Positions 33,963 to 60,332 of a stretch of DNA of 64,000 nucleotides are shown piece after piece (the first letter of the stretch is position 1; each line of letters starts with the position of its first letter). The position numbers and the translations under genes were made by a program. This DNA comes from Spirochaetota bacterium. Lineage in GTDB: Bacteria > Spirochaetota > UBA4802 > UBA5368. The notes under the pieces are model-generated. The model worked only from the letters and a program-made list of their open reading frames with translations, was not told the origin of the DNA and searched no databases. The stretch is taken from contig SCSX01000066.1 in the NCBI GenBank assembly GCA_004297825.1, forward strand, positions 1 to 64,000, read 5' to 3'.

Positions 33963-36128
33963 TTACTCTTTAGTGCGGATCACCCTGTCCAGGTCCTGCG
34001 CTTTTTCCTGGATGAGTTTCGAAACATCGATGATCACATCATTGGACTGGGTGATCTCCAGCGCCATCTGCGACAGCCGGTCTATGATTTTCTGCGTCTG
34101 GGCCATGGAATTCTTCTGTTCGTTCGTAGATGTCACGATCTCTTTCGACAACCTGTCGATCACCTCGGCCTGCCGGATGACCACTTCAAGGGCCGTGTTC
34201 TGCTTCGTCATCATCTCCCGTATCAAATCGAACCCGGAACCGATGACGTGTACCAGCTGGAGTATGGTATCGGTCGACTCCTTGGTGCTGAAGACGATGC
34301 GCGTGCCGGATTCGATGTCGGCGATGATCTTCGTTATCTGTTTTGTTATTTCCTTTGAATTATCGGAAGTAGCCTGCGCAAGTTTTCCAATTTCGTCCGC
34401 AACCACGGCGAATCCGCGCCCGTAGTCACCGGCCCGGGCCGCCTCGATCGCGGCGTTCAGGCTGAGCAGATTGATGCGGTCCGATATGTCGTCGATTATC
34501 TCGATGAACTGGTTGATCGCCGTGCCCCCGGCATTTATCGTGTTCATGGTATCCGTCATCGTGCGGAGGCTGTCGCCCGTGGCCGTCGCCGAACCCATAA
34601 TCTCCCTTATGCTCTCCTCGACCTTCCGGTTCTCCAGGATGAGGTTCTTCTGGGCATCGTTGAGCACGTCCACGAGGTTCTTCGATTTCTCGCCTTCTTC
34701 TTTCTGGCTTATGGTCGAATTGTAGATGGTTTCCACCGACGCGGAGAACTCCTCGAATGTCGCGGACATCTCTTCGCTTGTCGAGGCCTGTTCCATGGAA
34801 AGGCTCGTAAAACGGTTGGTAATTCCCTGGAGCCGGTCGCTCACGCTGATAAACTCTTCGGACAACGTGCCCGCGGTTCCCACGATGCCCTCGAGATACG
34901 CGGCCCGTTCGATCGTCGTTTTTTCGTGCTCCTTCTGCTCATCAAGGAGTTTCGACAGTTTTATTCTCATGACGTTGATATTATCGGCGAGGGCGAGGGA
35001 GAGGAAGACGACAACGAGCGAGGAGCCGATCTGCACGCCCCAGTCGGCGATAAACATCCCCGGCAGCACCCCAAAGGTCTTAAGGACATAGATTACGATG
35101 CCCGCCACGAGGCCGCCAAAGCCGATCAGGATGAACCGGGCCGGTCGCGAATTGCGGATAGTCGCATATATGACGCACCCGAACAGGCAAACCGCCAGGA
35201 CCCCCACTAACGCGGTTGCGCCGCGGATTGCCAGGCCATAGTCGACGAAAAGGGTGCACACGGCCCATGCGGATCCCGGGACAATGACGCCGTAGAGAAA
35301 TATTTTATCGACGACCCTGAAAAGCTTTTTGGTTTCGATGACCTGTTTCATGAACACGGCCGCCAGTGTAATTGCAACACAGATAAAAAAAGGCAGGGCG
35401 AACGAACCCCACCATAAGGCGTTCGGCCACAGGTATTGAAAGGAATAACCGTTCAGCGACATCTGCATTAAAATATACGCGGCGATGAACAAGACGTAAT
35501 ACAAATAACCGCGGTCGCGACCGGCGATGAAGATGAAAAAATTGTAGACCAGCATGATGAGCATGAGGCCGTAATATATCCAGATGATGGGCATCTGCGT
35601 CTGATTTCTGTGAATATATGCATTCTGAGACATGAGGATGGGCGTAAAATTCAGGGAACTCGACGTTTCAATTCTCAGGAAATACCGGTGGATCCCGGGG
35701 CCCTCGTTCAGCCGGAAGACGAAGTTCTTATCTTCGATTTCGCGTTCATGGAAAGGATACTTGTTACCGGTTTTAAATACGCGGTATCCCTTGCCCGTCG
35801 GGCGATAGAATTCCACATGATTCAGCATCGGATAGGTTAATTCCAAAAAATGGTTGAGGGCACTGCCCGTAGTATCGAGAGAAAACCGGAACCAGTATAC
35901 CGAACGGGTAAATCCGAAATTCAGGGACTCTTTATTCGACGCGGTCCATCGCTCTTCTTTTACGACCTGATCGAAGGATAGGGTATTTTCTTTGTCTTCG
36001 ATATATTCGACATTCAAGCCTATCGCCTGCGCGTCAAACGAATCGTCAACCCTTATGCCCTGGAGGGCCGCAAGCGACAGGGGAAAAGAAAATAGTATTG
36101 ATGCGATGATTGCAATTTTTAATTTCAT
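33963..36128 (-). CDS. Chemoreceptor with 7TMR-DISM sensor module
   Basis: The 721-aa receptor has a signal peptide and a periplasmic 7TMR-DISM type 2 domain (about residues 25-160, with YWFRFSLDTTGSALNHFLELTYPMLNHVEFY). Seven transmembrane helices follow (about 175-395), then a cytoplasmic methyl-accepting signalling domain (about 440-720) with hairpin [26 protein letters not shown] near residue 560. The DISM domain usually senses carbohydrates or other small ligands. No HAMP domain is visible. It is transcribed alone. Such 7TMR-DISM receptors are especially common in spirochaetes. Confidence 0.93.
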   Translation of the reverse strand: MKLKIAIIASILFSFPLSLAALQGIRVDDSFDAQAIGLNVEYIEDKENTLSFDQVVKEERWTASNKESLNFGFTRSVYWFRFSLDTTGSALNHFLELTYPMLNHVEFYRPTGKGYRVFKTGNKYPFHEREIEDKNFVFRLNEGPGIHRYFLRIETSSSLNFTPILMSQNAYIHRNQTQMPIIWIYYGLMLIMLVYNFFIFIAGRDRGYLYYVLFIAAYILMQMSLNGYSFQYLWPNALWWGSFALPFFICVAITLAAVFMKQVIETKKLFRVVDKIFLYGVIVPGSAWAVCTLFVDYGLAIRGATALVGVLAVCLFGCVIYATIRNSRPARFILIGFGGLVAGIVIYVLKTFGVLPGMFIADWGVQIGSSLVVVFLSLALADNINVMRIKLSKLLDEQKEHEKTTIERAAYLEGIVGTAGTLSEEFISVSDRLQGITNRFTSLSMEQASTSEEMSATFEEFSASVETIYNSTISQKEEGEKSKNLVDVLNDAQKNLILENRKVEESIREIMGSATATGDSLRTMTDTMNTINAGGTAINQFIEIIDDISDRINLLSLNAAIEAARAGDYGRGFAVVADEIGKLAQATSDNSKEITKQITKIIADIESGTRIVFSTKESTDTILQLVHVIGSGFDLIREMMTKQNTALEVVIRQAEVIDRLSKEIVTSTNEQKNSMAQTQKIIDRLSQMALEITQSNDVIIDVSKLIQEKAQDLDRVIRTKE

Positions 36129-45306: not shown

Positions 45307-45375
45307 ATGCGCAATGGAATCCGGGCGATCGCCCATGTCCCGATTCAACACTACCACTACGATCGGAGGAAACCG

Positions 45376-47076
45376 ATGAACGCTGAAACCCAGGCAACGA
45401 AGGGATGGAACCTCATCACCGAGGCATTTCTCAATAGGGGAGTCGAATATTTATTTTCGGTACCGGGAGAGAGCATAACGCCGGTCCAACGAGCCGTCGA
45501 AGATACGCCGATAAAAATAATCACCGCCCGTCACGAACAGGCGGCCGCGTTCATGGCGGAGGCGTACGGGAGAATGACGAAGAAGCCGGGCATCATCCTC
45601 GTGACATTCGGGCCGGGCTTCACCAATACGATATCGTCGATCGTGAACGCGCGTCTCTCCAACTCGCCCGTTATATTGATCGCCGGTGCGCACGGAAACA
45701 AGTCGCCGGAAAAGCTCGGCCTGCAGGATATGCGGCAGGAACCCATCATCGAATCCATTGTCAAGAAATCCCTGGTCTGCAGGAAGGCCGAGCGCATTCC
45801 GGAATATATCGATATGGCCTTTCGATACGCCACCCATGGCCGTCCGGGACCGGTGTTCCTCGAGCTCCCCATCGACGTGCTGGACGCAACGGTGAACCTA
45901 CAGAACGTCTCCCGTCCGTTAACCAGGGTATCCTCCAGGCCGATTGATACCGGGGAGGCGCGTGCCATGATCGACTTGATCAGGAATTCGGCGAAGCCCG
46001 TCATATTCGCGGGCAGCGGCGTGTATTTTTCGGACGCCGGCAGGGAGCTTACCGCATTTGTCGAAAACACGGGCATACCGGTGTTCACCGTCAAGTTTGC
46101 GCGCGGCTCGGTCCCCGACACGCATCCCCTCTGCTTCGAATCCTCCATCCTGGTCAGGCCTGGATCTTCGGGAATGGCGATTTCCGAATCCGATTGCGTC
46201 ATTCTCCTGGGCAACCGCTTGTGCATGTACAACGTGTGCGGCGCCTTTTTCAGAAGCGACGCGAAAATTATCCAGGTCGACATCGAACCGGAGGAGATCG
46301 GAAGGAACAGGTCGATCGATCTCGCGATCTGCAGCGATATTAGGGAACTTCTCGTGGCGTGCAATAAAACTATCAATGCGGAAAATTACGGCGAATCCCT
46401 CAGGAAGCGGTTCTCCGGATGGGTGAACGGATTGAAGGACAATGAAAAAGCATCCAAAGAGATGGGCCGGCTTAATTCCGACAGCGACACCGTTCCCATC
46501 AACCCCGGCAGGCTTGCGCGTGAGATCGACGATTTCATGGACAGGAAGGATGATATGGTCGTGGCCGACGGCGGGGATTCACAATCATGGATACTTACCA
46601 CGCGTACCTGCCGCGCGGAATGGAACGTGATGGATTCGGGCCTCTACGGCTGCCTGGGGGTCGGCATACCCTATGCGGTTTCGGCGAAACTGGTGAACCC
46701 TGACCGAAGGGTGCTGCTGTTCATCGGGGACGGCAGCATGGGTTTCAATTTCATGGAGGTGGAAACTTCGATCCGGAATAATCTGCCCATAGTGATCGTG
46801 GTGAACAACAACAATCTCTGGGGAATGACCGCGAACAGCATGCACTCAAGATATAAGCATTACATACCCGGCACCGTAGAGATAGGATTCGTGCCCTACC
46901 ATGACGCCGTGGCGGCCCTGGGGGGAAAGGGAATCCTTGTCGAGAACCCCGGGGACATCGCCCCCGCGCTTGAAGAAGCCTTCGCCTCGGGAAAGACCAC
47001 ATGCATCAACGTGGTTACCGACCCGCGAATAATCGGGCCGGGATCCATCGCGCTGGCGATGCTGGGGGAGGAGTAA
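45376..47076 (+). CDS. Thiamine-diphosphate enzyme, acetolactate-synthase-like
   Basis: The 566-aa protein has the three domains of ThDP-dependent decarboxylases/carboligases. The N-terminal PYR domain has catalytic Glu54 in TARHEQAAAF, the central domain starts near residue 195, and the C-terminal PP domain has FIGDGSMGFNFMEVET...VVNNNN, the GDG-NN ThDP-magnesium motif (about 450-480). Length is normal. It resembles acetolactate synthase and benzoylformate or phosphonopyruvate decarboxylases; no small regulatory subunit is adjacent, which argues against true AHAS. ATG 45376 has a perfect GGAGGA five bases upstream. The product may be processed by the neighbouring SDR. Confidence 0.88.
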   Translation: MNAETQATKGWNLITEAFLNRGVEYLFSVPGESITPVQRAVEDTPIKIITARHEQAAAFMAEAYGRMTKKPGIILVTFGPGFTNTISSIVNARLSNSPVILIAGAHGNKSPEKLGLQDMRQEPIIESIVKKSLVCRKAERIPEYIDMAFRYATHGRPGPVFLELPIDVLDATVNLQNVSRPLTRVSSRPIDTGEARAMIDLIRNSAKPVIFAGSGVYFSDAGRELTAFVENTGIPVFTVKFARGSVPDTHPLCFESSILVRPGSSGMAISESDCVILLGNRLCMYNVCGAFFRSDAKIIQVDIEPEEIGRNRSIDLAICSDIRELLVACNKTINAENYGESLRKRFSGWVNGLKDNEKASKEMGRLNSDSDTVPINPGRLAREIDDFMDRKDDMVVADGGDSQSWILTTRTCRAEWNVMDSGLYGCLGVGIPYAVSAKLVNPDRRVLLFIGDGSMGFNFMEVETSIRNNLPIVIVVNNNNLWGMTANSMHSRYKHYIPGTVEIGFVPYHDAVAALGGKGILVENPGDIAPALEEAFASGKTTCINVVTDPRIIGPGSIALAMLGEE

Positions 47077-47111
47077 TTGCATTCGTCACAGGATACGCCT
47101 GCCCGGTGTGT

Positions 47112-48194
47112 ATGTTTCATGCATGGGTACCAAGCATGAAACCGTCCATGTCTGGTACGTCCATCACAATTATCGTGTTATGCGTTTTCGTCCTTGCGGC
47201 CGGGACGCTGATCCGCAGTTGGATGAAAACACCTTACGGTGATCTCGATCTCCGCGCGGCGCTTCTGCTTAAATTTATAAAGGTCGCGGGAATTGAATTA
47301 TTCAAAGAAGGCGAAACTCCGGGGGAAAGCAGGAAGACCAGGAATGAATCAAGCCTGCTCAGGGGCCGCGGCATCCGCCTGGAGGCGGTGAGGAATATTG
47401 AAATACCCGGACCCGGGGGTATCATACCCCTCCGGATATATATTCCACGAACCGGACCTACTCTGCCGGTAATCGTATATTATCATGGGGGTGGTTGGTT
47501 TACGGGAACCCTGGATACGCACGATGCCATCTGCCGGTCACTCGCGCGGAAGACCGGCGCCGTTCTGGTGGCGGTGGATTTTCGACTGGCCCCGGAACAC
47601 GTCTTTCCCGCGGCCGTAGAAGATGCCTATGCAGCCCTTGTCTGGGTCGAACAAAACTGTCGAACCTTTCAGGGGGATGGGACCCGCATCGTTGTCGCGG
47701 GTGACAGTTCGGGTGGAAACCTTGCCGCGGCGATAAGCATCCTGGCGCGCGATGCAGGCGGTCCGCCCATACGATGCCAGGCGCTCATTTACCCAGTAAC
47801 CGATATTTCCCGCATGGAGACTCCTTCTTACCGGCATTACACGCGCGGATATTATCTCACGAAGCGGTATATGGAACTATTTCGTTCCATGTACGTTCCC
47901 GATCGTGCGCAATGGAAGGATCCCCGCGTTTCTCCGCTTCTGGCCGGGGACCTGCGAAACCTTCCGCCGGCAATTATCATAACCGCCGAATTCGATATAC
48001 TTCGCGATGACGGCGAGGCGTACGCGGCAAGGCTCGCCGAATCCAATGTCCCGGTAGTGCACCGTCGTTATGAAGGACTCATCCACGGGTTTATGGGAAT
48101 GGACCGGATATTTCCCCAGTCGCATGAAGCCATTTCGTATATCGGTGATGAGTTAAAAAAGTATCTAACTGGTATTGAGGGGAACATTGAATAA
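47112..48194 (+). CDS. HSL-type alpha/beta-hydrolase (esterase)
   Basis: The 360-aa protein belongs to the hormone-sensitive-lipase family. HGGGWF forms the oxyanion hole, GDSSGG holds the nucleophile Ser, the acid lies in FDILRDDG and the base His in IHGFMGM. An N-terminal membrane helix (TSITIIVLCVFVLAAGTLI, about residues 15-33) anchors it. The start is uncertain: ATG 47112, 47136 and 47148 are all in frame, and none has a strong ribosome-binding site. GGGGGAGGAG at 47066 lies too far upstream. It follows the ThDP enzyme by 35 bases. Substrate unknown. Confidence 0.8.
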   Translation: MFHAWVPSMKPSMSGTSITIIVLCVFVLAAGTLIRSWMKTPYGDLDLRAALLLKFIKVAGIELFKEGETPGESRKTRNESSLLRGRGIRLEAVRNIEIPGPGGIIPLRIYIPRTGPTLPVIVYYHGGGWFTGTLDTHDAICRSLARKTGAVLVAVDFRLAPEHVFPAAVEDAYAALVWVEQNCRTFQGDGTRIVVAGDSSGGNLAAAISILARDAGGPPIRCQALIYPVTDISRMETPSYRHYTRGYYLTKRYMELFRSMYVPDRAQWKDPRVSPLLAGDLRNLPPAIIITAEFDILRDDGEAYAARLAESNVPVVHRRYEGLIHGFMGMDRIFPQSHEAISYIGDELKKYLTGIEGNIE

Positions 48195-48335: not shown

Positions 48336-49889
48336 ATGTTCAATAAAATAAAGGTCAGGATACTTAATAAGTATGAAAACGTGTCCGGTATTTTGTACCG
48401 CAAAGCGTCTATACTTTTAATGGCGAATTTCGTTATTATTGTGTCCGTCCTTATTTTGCCCCCGTTGGTATATTCCCTGCGGGGGATACTGCTCTGGGTA
48501 TTGCTGATTTCGCTCATGGCAATAGCGGGAATGGTCTTAAGCATCATACTGATCAGAATCGGTTACTATTATATCGCTGCAAATGTAACCTCGTTGACAT
48601 CTCTCATAGTGTCCTGTTGCGGCGTCATTTATCAGCAATACCAAATGGACCCAGTCAAGATCGGTTATTCTTCCATGATGTATATCATTCCTATCAGCGT
48701 CGTTTACACTTCCCTGTTTTGCACCCGCCGGTGGACTACGCTTATCATGGTCGTCTCTCTCATGCTGGATTTTTCATATTTCCGATACCTGCGCGTTACT
48801 GGCGCAATCGATCACTTGACACTCAGCGCAGGGTTCATCGACAGTATATTTGCCATACTGCTGGCCTATGGCATCTCCATGCTTATCGATAAAATGAATA
48901 AAGACGCGATGGGTGACATCAAACGCGAACTCGAAAAAAATACCAGGCAATACACGCAAATAAAAAAGCTCCATGAATCAATCACGGATACGTCTGTCAT
49001 CCTTGCAAAAACATCGGAGGAATTGTCGGCGATGGCGATGAATTTCTCTAGCACTGCGATGTCCCAATTCGCTTCGGCCGAAGAGATCAGCTCGTCGGTT
49101 GAACAGATGAAATCGAACATGAACGTAGTAGCCGTGGACTCCGGCAGCCAGTATTTGAGTCTCGAAGCCTTGATTGAGCGAATAAATACTTTATCATCTT
49201 CCATCCTCACGATGAAGACCATCATTGAAAAAGCATCTAATGCCTCCGATGAAACCTCTCAGCAAACTAAATCGGGAGAAAGCATATTGGATGAGATGAA
49301 TAAAACTATGGCCGTCATCATCGAAAGCTCACGGCAGATGATCATGATCGTCGATGTAATCAATGAAATAGCGGACAAGATCAGCCTTCTCTCGCTCAAT
49401 GCCACCATAGAGGCCGCCAGGGCGAAAGAGTCGGGCAGGGGATTCGCCGTCGTGGCGAACGAAATTTCAAAACTGTCGACAATAACCAGCAACAGCCTGA
49501 GGGAAATTACCAGTCTCATTCAAAAAACCGAGAGTGAGGTCACCGTCGGCATGAATAACGTAAAGACGATTGTTGAAGTAATGCGAATCACGATTACGAA
49601 TGTAAACAGCATCAACGAATGGATGTCCCGCATAAACGAAGAGATGGCGATACAGGTCTCCATGAACCACGAGGTGAACGACCAAGCGACAAACGTACGC
49701 AAAATATCTGCCGAGATTCGACTATCGGCAAACGAACAAGAACAGGGGCTGGCCGAGGTCGCGCAAAACGTTACGAGCATGACCAGCCTGAATCAATCGT
49801 TCTCAGAAAGCGCCATGCGACTGGCGGGAGCGACCGAGGAGATCGCGACGATCGCGGAAAAACTAAAAACACAACTCACCGCATGCTAA
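48336..49889 (+). CDS. Membrane chemoreceptor with six-helix N-terminal region
   Basis: The 517-aa receptor has six hydrophobic helices (about residues 25-190) with little periplasmic sequence, so the sensor is membrane-embedded. A methyl-accepting signalling domain (about 225-515) follows, with hairpin [26 protein letters not shown]. No HAMP domain is visible. It belongs to the same local family as the receptor at 58782-60332 (similar membrane layout and NATIEAAR hairpin). The segment is more AT-rich than the first half of the window. Confidence 0.9.
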
Positions 49890-49941: not shown

Positions 49942-51231
49942 ATGAACGAAAAGAATCATTCCGGTGAATTCCCCATAAGCAGGCTCTCCGCATGGTACAT
50001 CCTTATAGTGTGCAGCCTGCTCTACATGATTAACTATATGGACCGGCAGGTCCTCTCCATAACCACTGAGTATATCCGCGGCGACCTGGGACTCACCGAT
50101 TCACATATCGGGATTATTCAGACGGTTTTCTTCATGAGCATGGCTCTCTTTTCCTTTCCCGTCGCCTTCGTAGTGGACCGGTGGAGCCGGAAGAAAACCA
50201 TAAGCATCATGGCCGTACTCTGGAGCATTTTTACGCTGATTACCGGCATGGGGAAAAGCTTTGCGGGTATTCTTATCCCCCGCGCGCTCACCGGCACCGG
50301 GGAAGCGGGCTTCACCTCGGGCGGGACCCCGCTCATCGCCGCGGCCTTCCCCAGGGAAAAGCGGAGCATGGCAATGGGAATCTTCAACCTGGCGATACCT
50401 CTTGGTTCCGCGCTGGGAATACTGCTGGGCGGCGTCATGGCCCAACGGTACGGATGGAGGACGCCCTTTTACGTCTTTGCGGTCCCCGGTGTCATCCTGG
50501 GCCTGCTGGCGCTTCGCATGAAGGATTACAAAACCGTTCATCATCACGACGACACCGGCCGGCGAATCGGTTTTTTACAGACCGTAGTCCTTCTGTTTCG
50601 CATCCGGACGTTGAAGTGGTTATACCTGGGTTACGCCATGCAGAACTTGATGGCCTTTTCGTTTCTTACCTGGGGGCCGGCATTTTACATGCGCTCCCAC
50701 GGCGCCGACGCCCGGCAGACCGGAACGGCCATCAGCATCATTGGCGTGATGGCCATATTCGGTTCGATCGCCGGGGGGATAATAGCCGATATGTGGCAGA
50801 GGCGGAACGCACGGGGGCGAATGCTCACGGCCGCATACGGACTGTGCAGTGCGACGGTGCTGTTCGTCCTCATGATTTATTTCGATATCAGCGGCATCGG
50901 ATTCGCCATCGGCATCGGATTCGGCATCTTCCTGGTGATTCCTATTCCGGCAATTAGCGCGGTCACCCAGGACGTGTCGCCGCCCGCGCTGAAAGGCGTA
51001 TCATGGGGAATGAACGCGTTCTGCTGCTACGTGCTTGGAGGGGGATGGGCTCCCCTGTTCATCGGTTTCATCTCAGACGCCATCGGTGGCGGCGCGCAAG
51101 GGCTTAAATCCGGGCTCCTTATAACCGCCATCGGCGGTCTGGCCGGTTCCATGTTCTACTGGCTGAGCTCGCGATCTTACCCGAATGATATGGAAAAGAT
51201 CAGGGGCCTGACGCTGGAAGCAGGTGATTGA
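49942..51231 (+). CDS. MFS transporter, anion:cation symporter (hexuronate-type)
   Basis: The 429-aa carrier has twelve transmembrane helices and the start LLYMINYMDRQVLSIT, close to ACS-family members such as ExuT/GudP relatives that import sugar acids with protons. The loop after helix 2 has VVDRWSRKKT (MFS motif A), and GTGEAGFTSGG lies in helix 4. AAGGAGAGGA precedes ATG 49942. It is a paralogue of the MFS carrier at 51885-53183 that closes the convergent acid-catabolic operon. Confidence 0.88.
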   Translation: MNEKNHSGEFPISRLSAWYILIVCSLLYMINYMDRQVLSITTEYIRGDLGLTDSHIGIIQTVFFMSMALFSFPVAFVVDRWSRKKTISIMAVLWSIFTLITGMGKSFAGILIPRALTGTGEAGFTSGGTPLIAAAFPREKRSMAMGIFNLAIPLGSALGILLGGVMAQRYGWRTPFYVFAVPGVILGLLALRMKDYKTVHHHDDTGRRIGFLQTVVLLFRIRTLKWLYLGYAMQNLMAFSFLTWGPAFYMRSHGADARQTGTAISIIGVMAIFGSIAGGIIADMWQRRNARGRMLTAAYGLCSATVLFVLMIYFDISGIGFAIGIGFGIFLVIPIPAISAVTQDVSPPALKGVSWGMNAFCCYVLGGGWAPLFIGFISDAIGGGAQGLKSGLLITAIGGLAGSMFYWLSSRSYPNDMEKIRGLTLEAGD

Positions 51232-51360
51232 AACTTGAATGAGTGACACGGTTGGCGGAGTACGAGGTACTATACAACAGGAAGAGGATATCAAATGAAA
51301 AGCGAGGAAGTAAATGTTTTTATCGCGTGATGATCGCGGATACTCGTGCAATGAATACTA

Positions 51361-51687
51361 TCATACTTGTACGGATAATAATATGATTCCGATAATAACC
51401 GCCACAGATCCAAGCAGATTGTAAATATTGATTCTTTCATGAAAAACGAAATACGAGAAGACCATAATGAGGGCTATACATGCCCCCGAAAAAACAGGAT
51501 ATGCGAAGCTCAGTCTGATATTCTTCAAGGCTTTCGTAAACAGGAATATATTTACGCCTCCAAGAATCATGCCCAGCGCGAAGAGCGCTATCCATAGCAG
51601 GTCATTTTGCCTGTTTGCAATGCTTTTATATATGAAATATGAGGCGACATTAAACAGTACGGATAAACTCAATAATAGGTAACTCAT
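51361..51687 (-). CDS. Small multidrug-resistance / DMT-type four-helix transporter
   Basis: The 108-aa protein has four transmembrane helices and the EamA/SMR pattern: a short SYLLLSLSVLFNVASYFIYK start, then KALKNIRLSFAYPVFSGACIALIMVFSYFVFHERI. The membrane Glu14 of EmrE is not present (Asn-Val there), so classical drug/proton exchange is doubtful; an undecaprenyl-aminoarabinose flippase-like (ArnE/F) role is an alternative. ATG 51687 is preceded by GGGTGG. It lies between the two MFS genes and is probably transcribed alone. Confidence 0.75.
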   Translation of the reverse strand: MSYLLLSLSVLFNVASYFIYKSIANRQNDLLWIALFALGMILGGVNIFLFTKALKNIRLSFAYPVFSGACIALIMVFSYFVFHERINIYNLLGSVAVIIGIILLSVQV

Positions 51688-51862
51688 CGCGCAATCCACC
51701 CCCGGCGGCGTATAGCGTCGCCCTGTCCGTTCTTATATTTCGAATAATGCAAGGTCCTGATCGCAGCGTCAAGTTAATGTTCCCTTTGAGTTTACCACAC
51801 TAACCGCGTATCTACGCCCCTGGTGAAACGTTGCGGGCAGCACCAGGAATAATCCACGATAG

Positions 51863-51882
51863 CGATAGCGATTCCGCTATCG
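51863..51882 (-). terminator. Hairpin at the end of the acid-catabolic operon
   Basis: CGATAGCG and CGCTATCG form a perfect 8-bp stem around ATTC, two bases after the stop of the minus-strand MFS gene. The following minus-strand sequence is not strongly T-rich, so it may be a weak terminator or mRNA 3'-end stabiliser. Confidence 0.5.
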
Positions 51883-51884
51883 AA

Positions 51885-53183
51885 TCACTCGCTCACGATA
51901 ACCATTTCCTTAACCCTGGCAGAATCCGATGGGAAGGATTTCGCGCCAACCCAGAAACACACGCCCGCCAGTATTCCACCGGCCGCCGTAATCACCAGGG
52001 CAATCCTGAGACCCGCCAGGCCGCTGCCCAACGAATCGGAGATAAGTCCAATCGCGATAGGTGCCCATCCTCCGCCGAGCACGTATTGAAGAAGCACATT
52101 CATCCCCCAGGACAGGCTTTTTAAATCAGGGGGCACCACCTCCTGCGTTGCGGCGGAGAGGGCGGGTATGCTCATCATCGCGATTATTCCGAACATGACC
52201 GCAGAAATATAACCGATTCCCTTCACATTAAGGGCGTAGGAAGTCATCAGCAATAGTGATGCCGCCGAGGAGCAGATCGCGGGCATGAGCAACCTCGCTT
52301 TTTGGTTTTTTAATTGCCATTTATCGGATAATACGCCGCCCAGCAATGCCCCGATTATCGCCATCATTCCGACAATTCCCATGAGCATTCCCGCTTTGTC
52401 CTCCCTGCAGCCGTAACAACGCATTATGTAAGAAGGCCCCCATACAAAAAATGAAAATGTCATTATCTGCATCATCGCGTAGCCGATATACAGCCACCGC
52501 AGCGACCGAATCTTGAAAAGCGCCCGCGCCGATTGCATCAGGTTCTTTTTACCGCCGGGGATATCGGAATTGGAATATGTCCTGTAATCTTTCATAAAGA
52601 ATGAGGCGATTCCCAGGATAATTCCCGGGATCGCGAATATGATAAACGGCGTTCTCCAACTGCCGGATTGTACGGAAATATAGCCTCCCAGGACGACACC
52701 CAGTGCGCTTCCTGTGGGAATCGCCATATTGAAAATTCCCATCACCTTGCCATGGTATTTTTTGTTGTACGCGGCGGTTATCATCGCGGTCCCGCCGGAA
52801 GCAAAACCCGCCTCGCCGACTCCCACGAACATTCGGGGCATAAGGACGCCGAGATAGGTTTTTCCGATACCGGTCAGGCAGGTGAAAAGGCTCCATCCTA
52901 CCGCCATAATCCCTATCGATTTCTTTCTGCTCCATCGATCGACGACAAACGCGGTGGGAAGGGCAAAGAAGGCGATACTCATGAGGAAGACGGTTTGAAT
53001 GGTTCCCACCTGCGTGTCGCTGAACCCGAGGTCGTTTTTCATAGCCTCCTGCACCACTGAAAGCACCTGGCGATCCATGTAGTTGACTACATAGAGCAAT
53101 GCGAAAATAATCAGGATAAAATGCGAATGAATATCTCCCGCTGCGAAATCCCTTCCGCCTGTCTCACGAGTGTTTCTGGGCAT
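51885..53183 (-). CDS. MFS transporter of the acid-catabolic operon
   Basis: The 432-aa, twelve-helix carrier is of the anion:cation symporter type (LLYVVNYMDRQVLSVV at helix 1, VVDRWSRKKSIGIM after helix 2, GVGEAGFASGG in helix 4). It should import the acid degraded by the enzymes encoded upstream. AAGGAG lies nine bases before ATG 53183; an earlier ATG at 53219 overlaps the aldolase stop and is an alternative. It is a convergent paralogue of the carrier at 49942-51231. Confidence 0.88.
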   Translation of the reverse strand: MPRNTRETGGRDFAAGDIHSHFILIIFALLYVVNYMDRQVLSVVQEAMKNDLGFSDTQVGTIQTVFLMSIAFFALPTAFVVDRWSRKKSIGIMAVGWSLFTCLTGIGKTYLGVLMPRMFVGVGEAGFASGGTAMITAAYNKKYHGKVMGIFNMAIPTGSALGVVLGGYISVQSGSWRTPFIIFAIPGIILGIASFFMKDYRTYSNSDIPGGKKNLMQSARALFKIRSLRWLYIGYAMMQIMTFSFFVWGPSYIMRCYGCREDKAGMLMGIVGMMAIIGALLGGVLSDKWQLKNQKARLLMPAICSSAASLLLMTSYALNVKGIGYISAVMFGIIAMMSIPALSAATQEVVPPDLKSLSWGMNVLLQYVLGGGWAPIAIGLISDSLGSGLAGLRIALVITAAGGILAGVCFWVGAKSFPSDSARVKEMVIVSE

Positions 53184-53218
53184 TTTTATTTTCTCCTTCT
53201 GCAAGATGACGTCCGGCA

Positions 53219-54202
53219 TTAGATCGATACTTCGCTTTTCAAATCCGATAAAAATATTCTGATTTTCTCGCTGTCCTGAACGGATATTTGAGGCAGCGGA
53301 CTCCTGACCCTGGAACGCACCGGATGACCTTGTTGATGCAGGATTTCTTTTACGACCGCATGGCGTGAAACATTTCTTGATCTCATCAAGGACGGGAAAC
53401 GGGATAATACTTTAAGGCCGGTTTTTTGGATTGCCGCCGGAAGGCCAAACGTATTCAGCACCGGAATCATGCGCTGGATGAGTTCCTGACGATGATTGGC
53501 CAGTTCGCGCTCGCCTGAAATCCAGGCTTCATAACAGTTAACGACAACCTCAGGGGAAAAAGCGGGGATCTGGCAGATGGCGCCCTGCGCCCCCAGTTGA
53601 AGGGACTTGAGAAGGAAAAAACTATTGCCCGTAAGCAGCGAATACGTGCGGTTTTGCGTGAGCTCGCAAAATGCCCTGGTATCGGACATGTTCATGGAAC
53701 TCTCTTTCATGCCAGCAAGCTCCTTTATGGACAATAGTTCGCTCATCTCTTTTCTCGAAAAAAACAATCCGGTCATTTGGGGATAATGGTAGTAAAGAAC
53801 GGGCTTTTTTGATTTCCCGCATACCCTGAGCATCAACTCTTTCATCTCCGGAAACGCCACCGGATAATAGGTGGGTTGAATTACCAGGAAACCGTCGATA
53901 TCCAGGACACCTGCCTCTTCGACAAAGGCCAGGGTCTCCCGCGCGCTGTTAAATCCAACGCCCACAAGAAGCGGAATCCTTCCGTGAATTGCCTTTACCG
54001 CGGTCTTCACTATCTGTAATTTTTCCCTGGCGGTGAAATACGGAAATTCCCCCCCGCTACCCAGCACTAAAACGCCGTGACAGCGGGAAGCGATATAATA
54101 GTTCAATAAATGATGCATGCCGCCGGGATCCAGGGTTTCATCGTCCATCAGGGGAGTCGGTGCCACCGGGAAAACGCCTTTCAAATATTCGTGTAATGCC
54201 AT
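53219..54202 (-). CDS. DapA/NAL-superfamily aldolase or lyase
   Basis: The 327-aa (alpha/beta)8-barrel enzyme has the Schiff-base Lys166 in LAGMKESSMN and the catalytic Tyr138 region in YYHYPQMTG. The substrate-binding loop GSGGEF (48-53) takes the place of GTTGE, so true dihydrodipicolinate synthase activity is unlikely. In this operon it probably cleaves, or dehydrates, a 2-keto-3-deoxy sugar acid, producing pyruvate and an aldehyde. AGGAGA precedes ATG 54202. It lies between the dehydratase genes and the MFS gene. Confidence 0.85.
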   Translation of the reverse strand: MALHEYLKGVFPVAPTPLMDDETLDPGGMHHLLNYYIASRCHGVLVLGSGGEFPYFTAREKLQIVKTAVKAIHGRIPLLVGVGFNSARETLAFVEEAGVLDIDGFLVIQPTYYPVAFPEMKELMLRVCGKSKKPVLYYHYPQMTGLFFSRKEMSELLSIKELAGMKESSMNMSDTRAFCELTQNRTYSLLTGNSFFLLKSLQLGAQGAICQIPAFSPEVVVNCYEAWISGERELANHRQELIQRMIPVLNTFGLPAAIQKTGLKVLSRFPSLMRSRNVSRHAVVKEILHQQGHPVRSRVRSPLPQISVQDSEKIRIFLSDLKSEVSI

Positions 54203-54270
54203 TTTCGTCTCCTGTCAGTAATTTCAAATGATAAACTTGAAAATGCTTCTTGAGATCAATGCCGCAGGGA

Positions 54271-55431
54271 TCAGAAGGAAGTATGCTGTGTATACATGCA
54301 TATAATCCCGGTTTGACGATTGATCTCCGCCCTGGTTTGCTGTCCGGAGATGACCCTCTTTAATATTTCCACTATCTCATGACCTACGTCTTCAATGCTT
54401 CTTCCTTCAAGAATGGAACCAGCATTGATATCCATATCGTCCGCCATATTTCGATACAGGGCGCTGTTGCTCGCGATCTTGATTACAGGAACAATCGGGT
54501 ACCCGATCGGTTGTCCGCGTCCCGTGGTAAACAGCATAACCTGCGCGCCGGAAGCCGCCACCCCCGTCATGGATTCCGTATCATACCCGGGACCGTCCAT
54601 GATTATCACTCCTTTCTCGCGGGGACGTTCTCCGTAGCTCACCACTTGTGCAATGGGCCTGTTTCCCGCTTTCGCTATGCACCCGAGCGATTTCTCCCTG
54701 ATGGAGCTCATGCCGCCGTCCATATTGCCCGGCGCGATCGAAACCTTCGCGAGAGGACCCAGCACCGCCCATGCGACCTTATCGGTATCATTAATAATCG
54801 TATCGATTTGCTGCGCAACCTCGGGGGTTGCCGCCCTTTTCTTTAAAATGTGATTCGTTCCGATCATTTCGGTCGTTTCTGTAAGGATCACCGTACCCCC
54901 GTTATCAACGACCCAGTCGGAGGCGATTCCGACTGCTGGATTCGCGCTGATCCCGGAGAATGAGTCCGAACCGCCGCATTCAAGACCGACAATTAATTTA
55001 TCGAGCGGACAGGCTGCCATGGGAATTTTTCCAACCTCCGCCAGCAGCTCCTTTGCCAGCTGAATACCCTTTTCGGTCGTGTTCCTGGTACCCCCCTCTT
55101 TTTGAATGATTAACGTTTTTACCGGTTTATTAGCCATTGCCGCGACCATTTCCAATCCTACAGGATTTATAAATTCACATCCCAGTCCTATCACCAGGAA
55201 CGCGGCTACATTGGGGTTCAGCGCCAGATTCTGGAGTGTTTTCGTATGAAGAACGAGGTCCGCTCCGCCGCGTCCGCATCCGTGACCATGGTACAGGGGA
55301 GTTGCCTCGGGAACGGCTCCTGCAATCGCGGCAACGACTCCGTTCGCGCAGGACACTGTCGGAATAATTGCGACGTAATTCCTGGTGCCGACCGTACCGT
55401 CCTTTCTTTCGTATCCAAGAAATGATTCCAT
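54271..55431 (-). CDS. UxaA/GarD-type sugar-acid dehydratase, large (catalytic) part
   Basis: The 386-aa protein matches the C-terminal domain of altronate/galactarate dehydratases. GYERKDGTVGTRNYVAIIPTVSCANGV opens the domain, and conserved Cys residues in SCAN, HGCGRGG, LGCE and GLECGGSDSFSG are probable iron or iron-sulfur ligands. It should remove water from an aldonate or aldarate to give a 2-keto-3-deoxy acid. In altronate dehydratase the SAF domain is fused at the N terminus; here it is the separate gene upstream, two bases away. The exact sugar acid is not evident. Confidence 0.88.
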   Translation of the reverse strand: MESFLGYERKDGTVGTRNYVAIIPTVSCANGVVAAIAGAVPEATPLYHGHGCGRGGADLVLHTKTLQNLALNPNVAAFLVIGLGCEFINPVGLEMVAAMANKPVKTLIIQKEGGTRNTTEKGIQLAKELLAEVGKIPMAACPLDKLIVGLECGGSDSFSGISANPAVGIASDWVVDNGGTVILTETTEMIGTNHILKKRAATPEVAQQIDTIINDTDKVAWAVLGPLAKVSIAPGNMDGGMSSIREKSLGCIAKAGNRPIAQVVSYGERPREKGVIIMDGPGYDTESMTGVAASGAQVMLFTTGRGQPIGYPIVPVIKIASNSALYRNMADDMDINAGSILEGRSIEDVGHEIVEILKRVISGQQTRAEINRQTGIICMYTQHTSF

Positions 55432-55433
55432 AA

Positions 55434-55703
55434 TTATTTTTCTCCCTCGATGATCATATTGTGAATATGGACCCAATCGCCTTTTTTTAAAGGACCCCTG
55501 GCCTGTCCTATTGGTTCGCCATACTTGATAATGCTTTGACCATCCTCGATATCCTTACGGACTATTTTATGCCCGCACGGGATGTCGGACAGCGCGGGAA
55601 ACGTTACCCCGCCGGGGAGCGATACAAGGTCGCCCCGCACTATATCAATGGTCGCGACTACGACGTTATCCAGTGGATTGATTTCAATGACATTTACTTT
55701 CAT
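55434..55703 (-). CDS. UxaA/GarD-type dehydratase, small SAF-domain part
   Basis: The 89-aa protein is a stand-alone SAF domain (MKVNVIEINPLDNVVVATIDIVRGD, then GHKIVRKDIEDGQSIIKYGEPIGQA), the N-terminal portion of altronate dehydratases. It should form the enzyme with the large part encoded immediately downstream. ATG 55703 is preceded by GAGGAA; an earlier start at 55736 is possible. Two bases separate its stop from the next start codon. Confidence 0.88.
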   Translation of the reverse strand: MKVNVIEINPLDNVVVATIDIVRGDLVSLPGGVTFPALSDIPCGHKIVRKDIEDGQSIIKYGEPIGQARGPLKKGDWVHIHNMIIEGEK

Positions 55704-55732
55704 ACCAGTTCCTCTTTCCTGAATTTGCACGC

Positions 55733-56620
55733 TCATGATCGTCCGTTTTCCTGAATCCCGACCATCTCAGCGAAATTTTCCCCGAGGACCCTCCTGCGAA
55801 TCCCCGGGTCTGTAAATAAAGATTCGAACCTTCTTATCGTGTAACCGTAATTAATCGGAACACCCTTCTCGTGGGTTCCCGTTGGGCCGTCGGTCCCGAA
55901 TAAGCAGCGGTCGGCGCCCAGGAATTCTATTACCCGCCTGGTCATGCGTCCGCTTACATATGATATTTGGGATATATCGACGAACATATTCTGAATATCT
56001 TTTATGCGTTTCCAAGTTTCCGAATAGCATGGAAAAGCGGCATGGGCTAAAATGATCTTCAATTCCGGGAACAGCCGGGATAATTCTCGGTATTGTTCGA
56101 AAGGGGAAAAATCACAGTGGATAAGCAGCGGCTTTCTTAACTTTACCAGCTCCGCGGCAACAGGTTGGAGTTTTATCGGAGAGTATCTGTGCCAGAAGGG
56201 GTGCGCCTTGCCTCCGGCAAGGTTTTTATTTGAACTGAATCGTGCAAGCTCCTCGGTCGGAATTTTTTCACCCCGGGGATTTACGAAAACCCATCCCAGA
56301 AATTTCCCGGGGTATTGATCGACCAGCTTGAACACGACGTCATTATCCGGATCCCTGAATATCTCATATTCTCCGCCGGGTAATTTAATATCGCCATTTT
56401 CAGAAAAGTTGCTCAGCAGCATCCTTGGTATTTCCCTGAACCCGGGTCTTTCCAGAAAGCTCCGCATAAGCCAGGAAACCGCAGGGTGCGGCAAAGGGAC
56501 AGGCTGGTTCATCGATGCCATAAGGGATATTTTATCGACGCCTGATTCATTCATTGTGCGTATCAGGTCATCCGGGGTCGTGATGAGTTCATCCCAATGG
56601 AAGTGACAATCGATAACCAT
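55733..56620 (-). CDS. Amidohydrolase-2 family enzyme, probable lactonase
   Basis: The 295-aa metal-dependent barrel enzyme starts with IDCHFHW (first metal His pair). It continues with LLIHCDFSP, ILAHAAFP and FGTDGPTG (metal Asp), the amidohydrolase-2 set. Family members in sugar-acid pathways hydrolyse lactones; others are decarboxylases. At the head of this dehydratase-aldolase-carrier operon a lactonase step before dehydration is the most natural role. AGGTGA precedes ATG 56620. Its last codons overlap an upstream alternative start of the SAF gene. Confidence 0.8.
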   Translation of the reverse strand: MVIDCHFHWDELITTPDDLIRTMNESGVDKISLMASMNQPVPLPHPAVSWLMRSFLERPGFREIPRMLLSNFSENGDIKLPGGEYEIFRDPDNDVVFKLVDQYPGKFLGWVFVNPRGEKIPTEELARFSSNKNLAGGKAHPFWHRYSPIKLQPVAAELVKLRKPLLIHCDFSPFEQYRELSRLFPELKIILAHAAFPCYSETWKRIKDIQNMFVDISQISYVSGRMTRRVIEFLGADRCLFGTDGPTGTHEKGVPINYGYTIRRFESLFTDPGIRRRVLGENFAEMVGIQENGRS

Positions 56621-56831: not shown

Positions 56832-58118
56832 TTGGCGGTAACTATGATGCGCAGGTTTACATCCCGGCTGCGGTCCCAATATTCGAGCAGTCCTTTCGAA
56901 ATTCGAATAAAATCGAGAATTCTCGCGTATTTATGCCTCATCATCGTCGTAATTCTTTCATGCATCTTCGTTTCGAACTTAATCCAGGTACCTCTGTTTG
57001 GAAACAGGCCTCTCTTTATCATTATTATTCAAATTAGTTTTATTCTGATCAGTCTGGCCCTACTCCTCAATGGATTTTATAATTCCGCAGTTAAAATAAT
57101 CATGGTTACGGTCCCCTTGGCCACCGTCTCCTTCATTATCATGAATACGATTTATGGGACTTTCAGCCTGTATCACGTAAATACCTTATACTATTCATTC
57201 GCAATTTTAGTAGTTGCAGCACTCTTCGGGACCTGGCAGTGGTTATATATTTTAACGGGAGTGTATATCGTTTTTGCCACGTCTTATTTCGCAGGTATAT
57301 CAATGTATGCCGATATCCATGGAAACGATTTAACAAATGTCATTTTAGACTATAATTTTTCGCTGCTCCTCGTGTGCATGGTCAGCGCCATGATCAAGAA
57401 GATAAATGCATCGATGATCAACAGGCTCGAATTTTATAACGAACAACTTCATCATGAAATGAGTGAGCGCGTAGCCTTGGAAAAAGCGATGATGACGATC
57501 GATGAGACAATTCATTTCCAAATCGGCCAGGAGCTTCACGACGACCTAGGACAACATCTCGTGGCCGTTAAAATGAGAAGTGAGGCCCTTAGAAAGATAT
57601 CCGAAACGAAATTCCCGGACGCGATCCCTGAAATCGATACCATAATCGAATTGACGGATCAGGCCGTTTTGAAAACCCGCCGAGTGCTTAAAGGACTCGG
57701 TCTTATCAACCTCAATGCGAATAATTTTATTTCCGCGCTAAGCGGTCTCGTTCTTGAATTTAATGAAACCTTTAAACTGCGCTGTGAATTCACGTATCAG
57801 GAGACAATACTCATCCCCGACGATCTCGTTGCGATCAACATGTACCGGATTGCCCAGGAATCGATCAACAACGCAATCAAGCACGGTAAGGCCGATATCG
57901 TTCGCATTTCCCTGACGGGAGATGATAAACTAATTACACTTGAAATCACCGATAACGGTTGCGGCATGCCGGATAGTTCTGCCGACTCGAAGGGAATGGG
58001 ATTGAGAATCATGAAATACAGGGCAAATATAATAGGCGCGGTAATCGAGATAAGTAATTCCCCTGGTGAAGGCGTCAGCGTGCGATGTGCTTTAAATCTT
58101 GCAGGATTACACAGGTAA
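56832..58118 (+). CDS. Membrane sensor histidine kinase, NarL-type (HisKA_3)
   Basis: The 428-aa kinase has about six transmembrane helices in residues 30-195. A HisKA_3 dimerisation domain follows with the phospho-accepting His in IGQELHDDLGQHL (about residue 236), then an HATPase_c domain with NNAIKH, ITDNGCGMP and SKGMGLRIM. The sensor is membrane-embedded and has no periplasmic domain. Start choice: TTG 56832 has AAGAGGA just upstream, while ATG 56844 has none at good spacing. It lies four bases before its response regulator gene. Divergence from the acid-catabolic operon suggests it may control that operon. Confidence 0.88.
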   Translation: MAVTMMRRFTSRLRSQYSSSPFEIRIKSRILAYLCLIIVVILSCIFVSNLIQVPLFGNRPLFIIIIQISFILISLALLLNGFYNSAVKIIMVTVPLATVSFIIMNTIYGTFSLYHVNTLYYSFAILVVAALFGTWQWLYILTGVYIVFATSYFAGISMYADIHGNDLTNVILDYNFSLLLVCMVSAMIKKINASMINRLEFYNEQLHHEMSERVALEKAMMTIDETIHFQIGQELHDDLGQHLVAVKMRSEALRKISETKFPDAIPEIDTIIELTDQAVLKTRRVLKGLGLINLNANNFISALSGLVLEFNETFKLRCEFTYQETILIPDDLVAINMYRIAQESINNAIKHGKADIVRISLTGDDKLITLEITDNGCGMPDSSADSKGMGLRIMKYRANIIGAVIEISNSPGEGVSVRCALNLAGLHR

Positions 58119-58122
58119 CCCC

Positions 58123-58779
58123 ATGAAAGCCGCGCTAAAAAAGAGACTCTTCATCGTAGACGATCATAAGATATTCAGGGAGGGACTGAGCTTGCTCATT
58201 GGCAGGGAACCCGATCTGGAGATATGCGGCGAGGCGGAGGAGGCCGATGCAGCATTGAAAGACGTTATAAAATTAAAGCCCCATCTAATCTTGCTCGACA
58301 TAACCCTGAAAAACAGCAACGGTCTGGAGTTCATCAGGGATCTGCAGAAAACGATGCCGGAAATTCCCGTTTTGATACTCTCGATGCACGACGAGATTTT
58401 CTACGCCGAGAGGGCCATCAAGGCCGGTGCCAAAGGCTATGTCATGAAACATGAGCCCGCGGGAACGCTCATGGATGCCATTCATAAGGTATTGGACGGA
58501 AAAATTTATCTAAGCGGCAAGATGACGGAGAGGGCGGTTGAACTGTTCTCCGAAACAATGAAAAATGTCGCGTCCTCGCCGATCGAATCCTTGAGCAATC
58601 GCGAGCTCCAGGTATTCGAATTAATAGGACGGGGCTATACAACGTATCAAATCGCGAAGGAGACAAATCTCAATATAAAAACAATCGGAACATACAGGGA
58701 AAAAATAAAGGCAAAGCTGAATCTGAAATCGGCTACGGAATTGACGAAATATGCCATTCATTGGATGGGAAATATCTAA
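58123..58779 (+). CDS. NarL/LuxR-type response regulator
   Basis: The 218-aa regulator has a receiver domain with acidic pocket Asp13-Asp14, phospho-site Asp59 in LILLDITL and the conserved Lys in GAKGYVM. A LuxR-type helix-turn-helix follows (about residues 150-210, LSNRELQVFELIGRGYTTYQIAKETNLNIKTIGTYREKIKAKL). AGGT precedes ATG 58123. It pairs with the kinase encoded just upstream and ends two bases from the convergent chemoreceptor gene. Confidence 0.93.
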   Translation: MKAALKKRLFIVDDHKIFREGLSLLIGREPDLEICGEAEEADAALKDVIKLKPHLILLDITLKNSNGLEFIRDLQKTMPEIPVLILSMHDEIFYAERAIKAGAKGYVMKHEPAGTLMDAIHKVLDGKIYLSGKMTERAVELFSETMKNVASSPIESLSNRELQVFELIGRGYTTYQIAKETNLNIKTIGTYREKIKAKLNLKSATELTKYAIHWMGNI

Positions 58780-58781
58780 CA

Positions 58782-60332
58782 TCATCCGGTCGGATCTTCA
58801 ATCTTGTGCTTTGCCATTTCACCGAGCGAAGCCGCGATCTCATTGACATTCCTGGCGCTTTGCGATAGTTCCTCGGCACCCATCGCGTGCGATTGATTGA
58901 TACCGCTGAACATAAGGATGGTGTCCACCATCTCCTTCAAGACGATTTCCTGCTCATTTGCCGAGGAGCGGATCTCTTCCGATCGAAGAAATAGCTTATC
59001 CGTTTCGGCTATCACCGTTTTCTGCATTTTTTTCTGGATAGTCATGAAGTCGAATATCTGGTTAACCATATTCGCTATATTTTCAACGTTTGCCATTGCC
59101 TGATTGCCGGAATATTTTGCTTTCTCGATGTTTTCGATACCGGCGTTCATCTCCCCCGTAATTCCCATGATCAAGGTGTTGATATCCGAAATGCTTCGAT
59201 CGGTTTTTGCCGCCAGGTTTGAGATTTCCTTCGCCACTACCGTAAAACCGCGCCCGGAGAAGCCGGCACGCGCCGCTTCGATCGTCGCATTTAAGGAGAG
59301 CAAATCGATCTGCTCCGAAATGCCTTTGATAATTTCCAGTATCGCGATCATTTGCTCCGAGCTCCTGTTAACGTTTGAGACGCTTACGTGCATTACAGAT
59401 TGATATTTTCTGGTGCTTTCTATCGAACCCATGACGTCCCGCGAGACCGATTGGGCCTCGTTGATTTTAATACTCATTTCCTCAATGCAGTTCGAAAGAA
59501 GGGATATTTCTTCCTTCAACATACTGATGCTGCGGTGCTGATCTTTAATGCTATCGGCGATAAGCTCGTTGCTGCTTGTAATTTCTTCGGCCGAGGCGGT
59601 AAATTCCTCGATAGCCGCGGCCTGACCCTGGGAACTGGTAGAAAAACTATCCGCATTGTCGGACAATTCCCGGGAGTGAGACGTCAATTTGAATGATACG
59701 GATTTAATGGAATTGATCAGATCAAGAATCGTGGAATATTGATGTTTATTTATTTCCAACTCATTTTCAATTCGTTTATAGGCGTTGATCCTAATGGACA
59801 TTAAAAGATAACTGACAAGAGAAATCATGAAAACCGCCAGACAGCCTTCAATGGTTGTTTTTGCCAGGATGCTATGATACTCGCCAGACGCATGTGTCTT
59901 TGCAAAAATATAGAACAGACCGTTAGTCATAATAACCAATGCTGAAACGAGCAGTACCGTTATCCTGGTGCAAAACAACGATGCGGCGACAATAACCGCC
60001 ATCAGGTGATACAAAGTCGACGGATGATGCGTATATTCATAACCTTCCGCCGCGGTCTTGAAAACATAATCAAATCCCGCGATTACGGTTAATGAAAGCA
60101 AAAAGATATTTACCGACGCCAGGTAGTACCCCTTTTTCAACAGCACCACAGACATGACTGACATTAAGATGATGATAAAGAAAATAGGGTTTAGTCGGCG
60201 TTCCACCGCGAGCGTTGTTACAGCAAGGGCGGTAGTGATAACAATTACGAATGGCAGCGTAACCAAAAAATATTGAACTTTCTTTTGAACCGAATAAGGA
60301 CTGTTTTCGTATGCTCTTATCATGAGTGTCAT
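58782..60332 (-). CDS. Membrane chemoreceptor with six-helix N-terminal region
   Basis: The 516-aa receptor has a six-helix membrane region (about residues 20-195) and a methyl-accepting signalling domain (about 225-515) with hairpin [26 protein letters not shown]. It closely resembles the receptor at 48336-49889 in layout. No HAMP domain is visible. GGGAGGA precedes ATG 60332. It is convergent with the two-component pair at a two-base gap. Confidence 0.92.
   Translation of the reverse strand: MTLMIRAYENSPYSVQKKVQYFLVTLPFVIVITTALAVTTLAVERRLNPIFFIIILMSVMSVVLLKKGYYLASVNIFLLSLTVIAGFDYVFKTAAEGYEYTHHPSTLYHLMAVIVAASLFCTRITVLLVSALVIMTNGLFYIFAKTHASGEYHSILAKTTIEGCLAVFMISLVSYLLMSIRINAYKRIENELEINKHQYSTILDLINSIKSVSFKLTSHSRELSDNADSFSTSSQGQAAAIEEFTASAEEITSSNELIADSIKDQHRSISMLKEEISLLSNCIEEMSIKINEAQSVSRDVMGSIESTRKYQSVMHVSVSNVNRSSEQMIAILEIIKGISEQIDLLSLNATIEAARAGFSGRGFTVVAKEISNLAAKTDRSISDINTLIMGITGEMNAGIENIEKAKYSGNQAMANVENIANMVNQIFDFMTIQKKMQKTVIAETDKLFLRSEEIRSSANEQEIVLKEMVDTILMFSGINQSHAMGAEELSQSARNVNEIAASLGEMAKHKIEDPTG

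Follow-up and report, generated by a model that had tools for sequence, protein, structure and literature searches.

The closest described relatives of the system considered here, a two-gene dehydratase and its neighbours in a 64,000-nucleotide stretch of DNA from a Spirochaetota bacterium (contig SCSX01000066.1 of assembly GCA_004297825.1; the whole stretch is called the window below), are the UxaA/GarD dehydratases. Among these are Escherichia coli UxaA and GarD, the Herbaspirillum D-arabinonate dehydratase and the Paracoccus D-idonate dehydratase, which have the same Pfam domains as the window's enzyme and four iron cysteines; the passages of a comparative study that deal with this site give the cysteines as conserved across the UxaA/GarD enzymes compared, SuyAB excepted (PMC6336799). 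SuyAB, the sulfolactate sulfo-lyase, consists of a SAF and a large subunit, as does the window's enzyme. In Enterocloster clostridioformis, GarD and the DapA-like aldolase GudL belong to one sugar-acid pathway according to part of a further study (PMC11775122), and a UxaA/GarD-family dehydratase is likewise paired with a DapA-like aldolase in the window. Dehydration followed by YagE-type cleavage is also encoded by E. coli yagEF and yjhHG (annotated as D-xylonate dehydratase and 2-dehydro-3-deoxy acid aldolase); the partner dehydratases YagF and YjhG are, to our knowledge, not of the UxaA type. Lastly, on the Salmonella plasmid pSA20021456.1 a DapA-family gene and a permease gene adjoin UxaA genes that are split, as in the window.

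The window's locus departs from each of these. Its large dehydratase subunit (UXA) shares 34% identity with UxaA and 37% with GarD, is not itself a GarD, is encoded apart from the small subunit (SAF) and falls into a separate clade in a tree built without the Herbaspirillum enzyme. Three SuyB-like proteins are 31–33% identical to UXA. Its aldolase (DAP) is 27–29% identical to YjhH and YagE, and the K194 diagnostic of GudL corresponds to N193 of DAP, a position placed by spacing from the catalytic lysine alone and not by alignment. The plasmid cluster, with 44% identity for UXA and 25% for the DapA-family protein, contains an IclR regulator, a 2-keto-3-deoxygluconate permease and an FAH-family enzyme, and no amidohydrolase among the 18 features listed; related plasmid genes are annotated as “UxaA family hydrolase” or “altronate dehydratase family protein”. 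The logic of import, dehydration and cleavage is familiar and plausible, whereas the dehydratase subfamily, the combination of genes and the presumed substrate match none of the known routes tested, and the combination of parts looks new.

On the minus strand, from 56620 down to 51885, the window carries an amidohydrolase gene (AHY), SAF, UXA, DAP and a major facilitator superfamily (MFS) carrier gene (MFS2), each with a Pfam domain over cut-off (Table 1). This operon is faced by a second one with an esterase (EST) and a second carrier (MFS1), and a two-component system is divergent from it. We favour the reading that the facing operons and the two-component system form one island that breaks down a hydroxy acid, and put its probability at roughly 0.55. 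On this reading the substrate, an anionic hydroxy acid or a lactone or ester of one, would enter through MFS1 and MFS2, and EST, perhaps together with AHY, would hydrolyse the lactone or ester. As a two-subunit iron dehydratase, SAF and UXA would then take water from C2–C3 of a 2,3-dihydroxy acid and so form a 2-keto-3-deoxy acid, which DAP would split into an aldehyde and pyruvate by way of a Schiff base on K166. The sensor histidine kinase is the probable regulator of the operon. Both facing operons are read as one island because two linkages, of the kinase and response regulator with SAF–UXA and of DAP and MFS with esterases, recur in relatives. A fair guess at the substrate is a hydroxy acid in lactone or ester form, because DAP and MFS adjoin esterases, one of them orthologous to EST, in a related genome. 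A preliminary description of the window had listed the amidohydrolase, split UxaA-type dehydratase, DapA-type aldolase and two carriers, all of which are intact open reading frames (ORFs); the esterase of the facing operon, the two-component system and an EamA/SMR-like gene had been overlooked.

The dehydratase carries GD_AH_second, GD_AH_C and SAF domains over Pfam cut-off on two adjacent genes, which places it in the UxaA/GarD superfamily, and all four iron-site cysteines, assigned by alignment with UxaA, GarD and others, are kept in UXA (C28, C52, C85 and C152). For comparison, we scanned the genome collection with a two-sequence profile and took the best 80 of 416 confirmed relatives, a sample skewed by two peptide patterns towards the window's kind; the subfamily as used here comprises 60 loci from this set (L036–L095). 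The four cysteines are kept in 59 of these, the exception (L095) being partial, as well as in UxaA and GarD, while two Haladaptatus family members deviate at the site and the three SuyB-like proteins have the fourth cysteine but not the other three. SAF lies within 200 bp upstream of UXA in 58 of the 60 loci (in L095 the distance is 374 bp, and L091 begins at a contig end), and split genes are normal for the subfamily. In an 88-row tree, which omits the partial row L095 and the four cut loci L096, L097, L098 and L103, the window's UXA falls inside a 61-row clade (SH-aLRT 99); in a more careful tree of 45 hand-chosen rows it belongs to a 29-row clade with support of 100/99. The route had been suspected to be none of the standard E. 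coli ones, and neither cut-offs nor trees match UXA to galactarate or altronate enzymes: it scores 256.7 bits on TIGR03248 (GarD) against a cut-off of 730.85 that is set for the full fused protein, of which UXA is the large part only, and it does not group with E. coli UxaA, whose own place in the tree is unsure because it forms a long branch.

Judged by record titles, the subfamily occurs in Thermodesulfobacteriota, “Deltaproteobacteria”, Spirochaetes, Actinomycetota, SAR324 and Bacillota, lineages that we take to be of anaerobe type and mostly uncultured, with metagenome assemblies predominating; a 72% identical UXA is present in a relative of the same order (G032). In the openly licensed literature, judged by title and start of the abstract, no paper on the subfamily was found. 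It is a separate, strongly supported and apparently uncharacterised group of two-subunit iron dehydratases, which the window exposes in Thermodesulfobacteriota, spirochaetes, Actinomycetota and Bacillota. In the window this subfamily is coupled with carriers, an aldolase and a two-component system; the substrates to be searched are thereby narrowed to 2,3-dihydroxy acids, which might be presented as lactones or esters, and the dehydratase reaction becomes testable in vitro.

Other members have surroundings of their own (gene names by inspection). In L082, L084, L086, L089 and L093 the subfamily genes stand behind LutA/B/C-like and LarA-like genes, which suggests a short 2-hydroxy acid as substrate of this branch. 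In L061, the genes ahead of SAF–UXA are a 2-oxoacid:ferredoxin-oxidoreductase-like set and a CoA-transferase-like one, which would fit oxidation of a 2-oxo acid product to a CoA ester. Contig C79 of the host (82699–101100; L033 and L034; names partly by inspection) carries two Amidohydro_2-like genes, nitroreductase-like, AMP-ligase-like and thiolase-like genes and an MFS gene 48% identical to MFS2, and farther along a second SAF–UXA pair (62%) with a 2-hydroxyacid dehydrogenase-like gene after it.

Spacing and intact catalytic residues count in favour of a single island, as do the recurrent links and the co-occurrence of AHY and DAP. The AHY stop codon and an upstream SAF start codon overlap as ATGA, with 29 nt from AHY to the preferred SAF start; SAF and UXA are separated by 2 nt, UXA and DAP by 68 nt and DAP and MFS2 by 35 nt. 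We compared the host genome (G000; 4.89 Mb, 96 contigs) with those of relatives, coding relatives' genomes G, loci L and host contigs C. Two linkages recur, each in one other genome. The first is found in G023 (L156; L048 is evidently from this same contig), where a kinase–regulator pair (39% and 56% identity) is divergent from SAF–UXA as in the window; there, an aldehyde-dehydrogenase-family gene scoring under curated cut-offs follows UXA. The kinase was detected at E ≤ 1e-45 in three of 148 genomes (at most 11 candidates per genome scored); in the third, G043 (81% complete), neither a UXA at E ≤ 1e-60 nor a recognisable island gene beside the kinase pair was found. The second linkage is in G043 itself (L150), whose contig ends upstream of DAP: DAP, an MFS gene directly after it (gap 41 nt; 56% to MFS2), a GDSL hydrolase, an arylesterase/SGL protein (paraoxonase-like) and an Abhydrolase_3 esterase (57% to EST) follow one another on one strand. 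No close MFS was found in the remaining six DAP loci, and in L077 an MFS gene 50% identical to MFS2 directly follows SAF–UXA. In addition, GDSL hydrolase and AMP-ligase families are common to the surroundings of AHY in G017 and of DAP in G034, and AHY and DAP occur together in four of 59 genomes, the host's included, with 10 carriers of AHY and six of DAP (nominal P = 0.006, or 0.02 without the host genome; cut-offs were chosen after viewing the matches and relatedness is uncorrected).

Several observations weigh against the island. DapA (five queries) and AHY (three queries) are absent at E ≤ 1e-6 from all 60 listed subfamily loci, which span 3–17 kb (median 15.9; 11 under 8 kb); UXA, SAF, DAP and MFS are absent from all nine AHY loci (3.5–19 kb, three of just 3.5–6.5 kb), and UXA, SAF and AHY from all seven DAP loci (5–19.5 kb, two of just 5–7 kb). 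G032 carries AHY, UXA and DAP on three separate contigs. Neighbours in the listed subfamily loci, named by inspection, are LarA-like (11 of 60), LutABC-like and indolepyruvate-oxidoreductase-like (5–6 of 60 each), which indicates other hydroxy acids, and in three relatives the genes beside AHY encode an acyl-CoA dehydrogenase, an aldehyde ferredoxin oxidoreductase or an enoyl-CoA hydratase. The 68-nt gap between UXA and DAP could leave room for a second promoter, and DHDPS-family proteins can also act as dehydratases or decarboxylases. While its import–dehydrate–cleave logic is plausible, the “complete route” of the preliminary description is unproven because linkage of AHY, UXA and DAP was not seen in any other locus examined. 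These separate neighbourhoods, and the acyl-CoA or aldehyde-oxidoreductase genes beside AHY, would also suit a set of co-induced enzymes with no single route, SAF–UXA acting on a short hydroxy acid of its own, AHY in acyl-CoA or aromatic metabolism and DAP elsewhere. We consider this possible though on the unlikely side, as it has to contend with tightly spaced genes in the same orientation, with the neighbours common to AHY in one genome and DAP in another and with the co-occurrence of the two.

As previously described, DAP is of the DapA type: it matches PF00701 and has K166 at the Schiff-base position and an aligned Y138, as in DHDPS/NAL class I aldolases, and in a profile search the closest solved structure is E. 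coli YagE. The motifs LGSGGEF, PQMTG and GMKES could be aligned against YagE, NanA and DapA, and a methionine takes the place of the arginine of PSRTG in E. coli DapA (the roles of K166, Y138 and this arginine are those we presume). A biosynthetic DapA identity was rejected, with DAP scoring 120.7 against a TIGR00674 cut-off of 206.15; an ordinary DapA, which groups with that of E. coli, is encoded on contig C23. A tree without two long rows (Pseudosulfitobacter and Paracoccus) joins DAP with others from its order into a group of eight proteins with support of 100/100; YagE/YjhH, NanA and DapA lie outside it. Strong DAP members were found in six of 148 genomes (39–52% identity), the next matches having at most 29%. 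DAP might instead dehydrate or decarboxylate, as other DHDPS-family proteins can, the route then ending in a semialdehyde or 2-oxo acid with no aldol cleavage. Models of 5-dehydro-4-deoxyglucarate dehydratase match eight of eight DAP orthologues, with the window's DAP under the cut-off, and the aldehyde-dehydrogenase-family gene in G023 (itself under curated cut-offs) would fit such an end; with YagE as the best profile match and LGSGGEF identical to YagE's, we nevertheless hold this to be improbable.

The facing carrier is a paralogue of MFS2, as had been noticed, yet the two are only two of nine genes of their family in the genome (E ≤ 1e-20). The earlier assignment of the operon's carrier to the ACS family did not hold: the two carriers score 169.4 and 155.9 bits on TIGR00893 against a cut-off of 395, and in a search made with MFS2 only, MFS2 is closer to spinster-type carriers than to DgoT. 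Orthologues of AHY with at least 42% identity are present in 10 of 59 genomes, the host's included, after which the score falls from E 1e-82 to 1e-9; any match at all was obtained in 25 of the 59. H6, H8, H168, H193 and D244, which we take to be metal ligands, are invariant across the ten orthologues. A search of PDB sequences with an AHY profile gave six matches at E ≤ 0.001. Two of these are uncharacterised hydrolases and two are DNases of the TatD type; the others are 5-carboxyvanillate decarboxylase and LigW2, and none bears the name lactonase. AHY may be a lactonase; a single-sequence AlphaFold model (mean pLDDT 37.3) was too poor for use.

The genome also has a sulfur context. On contig C51 (L172, L174 and L182), DsrA (565 bits vs 392.85), DsrP, Xsc and acetate kinase all exceed their cut-offs and a DsrK-like protein falls short of its own (319.9 vs 400); the contig also encodes an MFS carrier 36% identical to MFS2 and, beside Xsc, a thiamine pyrophosphate (TPP) enzyme 54% identical to the window's. 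Sulfite respiration fed by organosulfonates is therefore probable in this spirochaete; of 148 genomes, 11 have dsrA and 11 have xsc, with eight having both, and Dsr-bearing Spirochaetota have already been described, as parts of two studies indicate (PMC10591310, PMC9040765). The island's substrate might then be a sulfonated sugar acid, broken down in the manner of a sulfo-Entner–Doudoroff pathway by unrelated enzymes and feeding sulfite respiration: lactone opening, UxaA-type dehydration and aldol cleavage would yield pyruvate and a sulfonated aldehyde. This is a long shot because just two of the four genomes with a subfamily UXA have dsrA and xsc, the other two having neither, and the link by co-occurrence was rejected. 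It is also very improbable that SAF–UXA is SuyAB itself, releasing sulfite for respiration, for although the two-subunit architecture is alike and the genome encodes DsrA and Xsc, UXA has not lost the four-cysteine site as the three SuyB-like proteins have (so named because two lie by sulfate exporter family genes and the third by Ldh-family and hydroxyacid dehydrogenase genes), does not group with SuyB and is accompanied by no sulfite/sulfate exporter among the 20 window proteins scanned against Pfam.

Table 1. Features of the proposed island and its surroundings in the window. Scores are in bits, each against the cut-off of its model.
Feature	Position	Strand	Evidence and remarks
AHY, amidohydrolase 2 family metal-dependent hydrolase or decarboxylase	55733..56620	-	Operon gene 1; PF04909 77.8 vs 26.4
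SAF, dehydratase small subunit	55434..55703	-	PF08666 25.8 vs 21
UXA, large subunit, UxaA/GarD-type dehydratase	54271..55431	-	PF20629 300.8 vs 26.8; PF04295 129.2 vs 27.3
DAP, class I pyruvate-type aldolase, DHDPS family	53219..54202	-	PF00701 136.5 vs 22.1; K166, Y138
MFS2, major facilitator carrier	51885..53183	-	PF07690 178.5 vs 33.4
EamA/SMR-like small membrane protein, 112 aa	51361..51699	-	PF00892 and PF00893 over cut-off; between both MFS genes
MFS1, facing paralogous carrier	49942..51231	+	48% identity to MFS2
Methyl-accepting chemotaxis protein	48336..49889	+	PF00015 99.3 vs 34.6; between esterase and MFS1
EST, alpha/beta hydrolase, hormone-sensitive lipase type	47001..48194	+	PF07859 259.6 vs 25; LipP1 363.1 vs 350
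TPP-dependent enzyme	45307..47076	+	Three TPP domains over cut-off
Sensor histidine kinase, divergent from operon	56832..58118	+	HisKA_3, HATPase_c; 39% orthologue divergent from SAF–UXA in G023
Response regulator, partner of kinase	58099..58779	+	55.7% orthologue, same place in G023

Start sites were refined gene by gene. MFS1 starts with the ATG at 49942, preceded by AAGGAG, and UXA at 55431. SAF most likely starts at 55703 and not at 55736, because the SAF of the paralogue starts at the same point and a purine-rich stretch lies upstream; MFS2 most likely starts at 53183, behind AGAAGGAG, 35 nt past the aldolase stop, and the true start of EST is probably near 47139. The TPP enzyme is under the curated cut-off of all 25 NCBIfam models listed. 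The operon genes are alike in GC content (47–53%). Promoter-like sites showed no excess over chance (8 vs 8.7), and terminator-like sites no clear one (12 vs 7.7, standard deviation 3.0). Three ORFs of the window form a similarity cluster that resembles chemotaxis receptors (33963–36128, 48336–49889 and 58782–60332), two of them at the edges of the island; the Pfam scan covered that at 48336–49889. Just past the window (C66 65121–68207; L035) lie genes that by inspection are CoA-transferase-like and 4-hydroxybutyryl-CoA-dehydratase-like.

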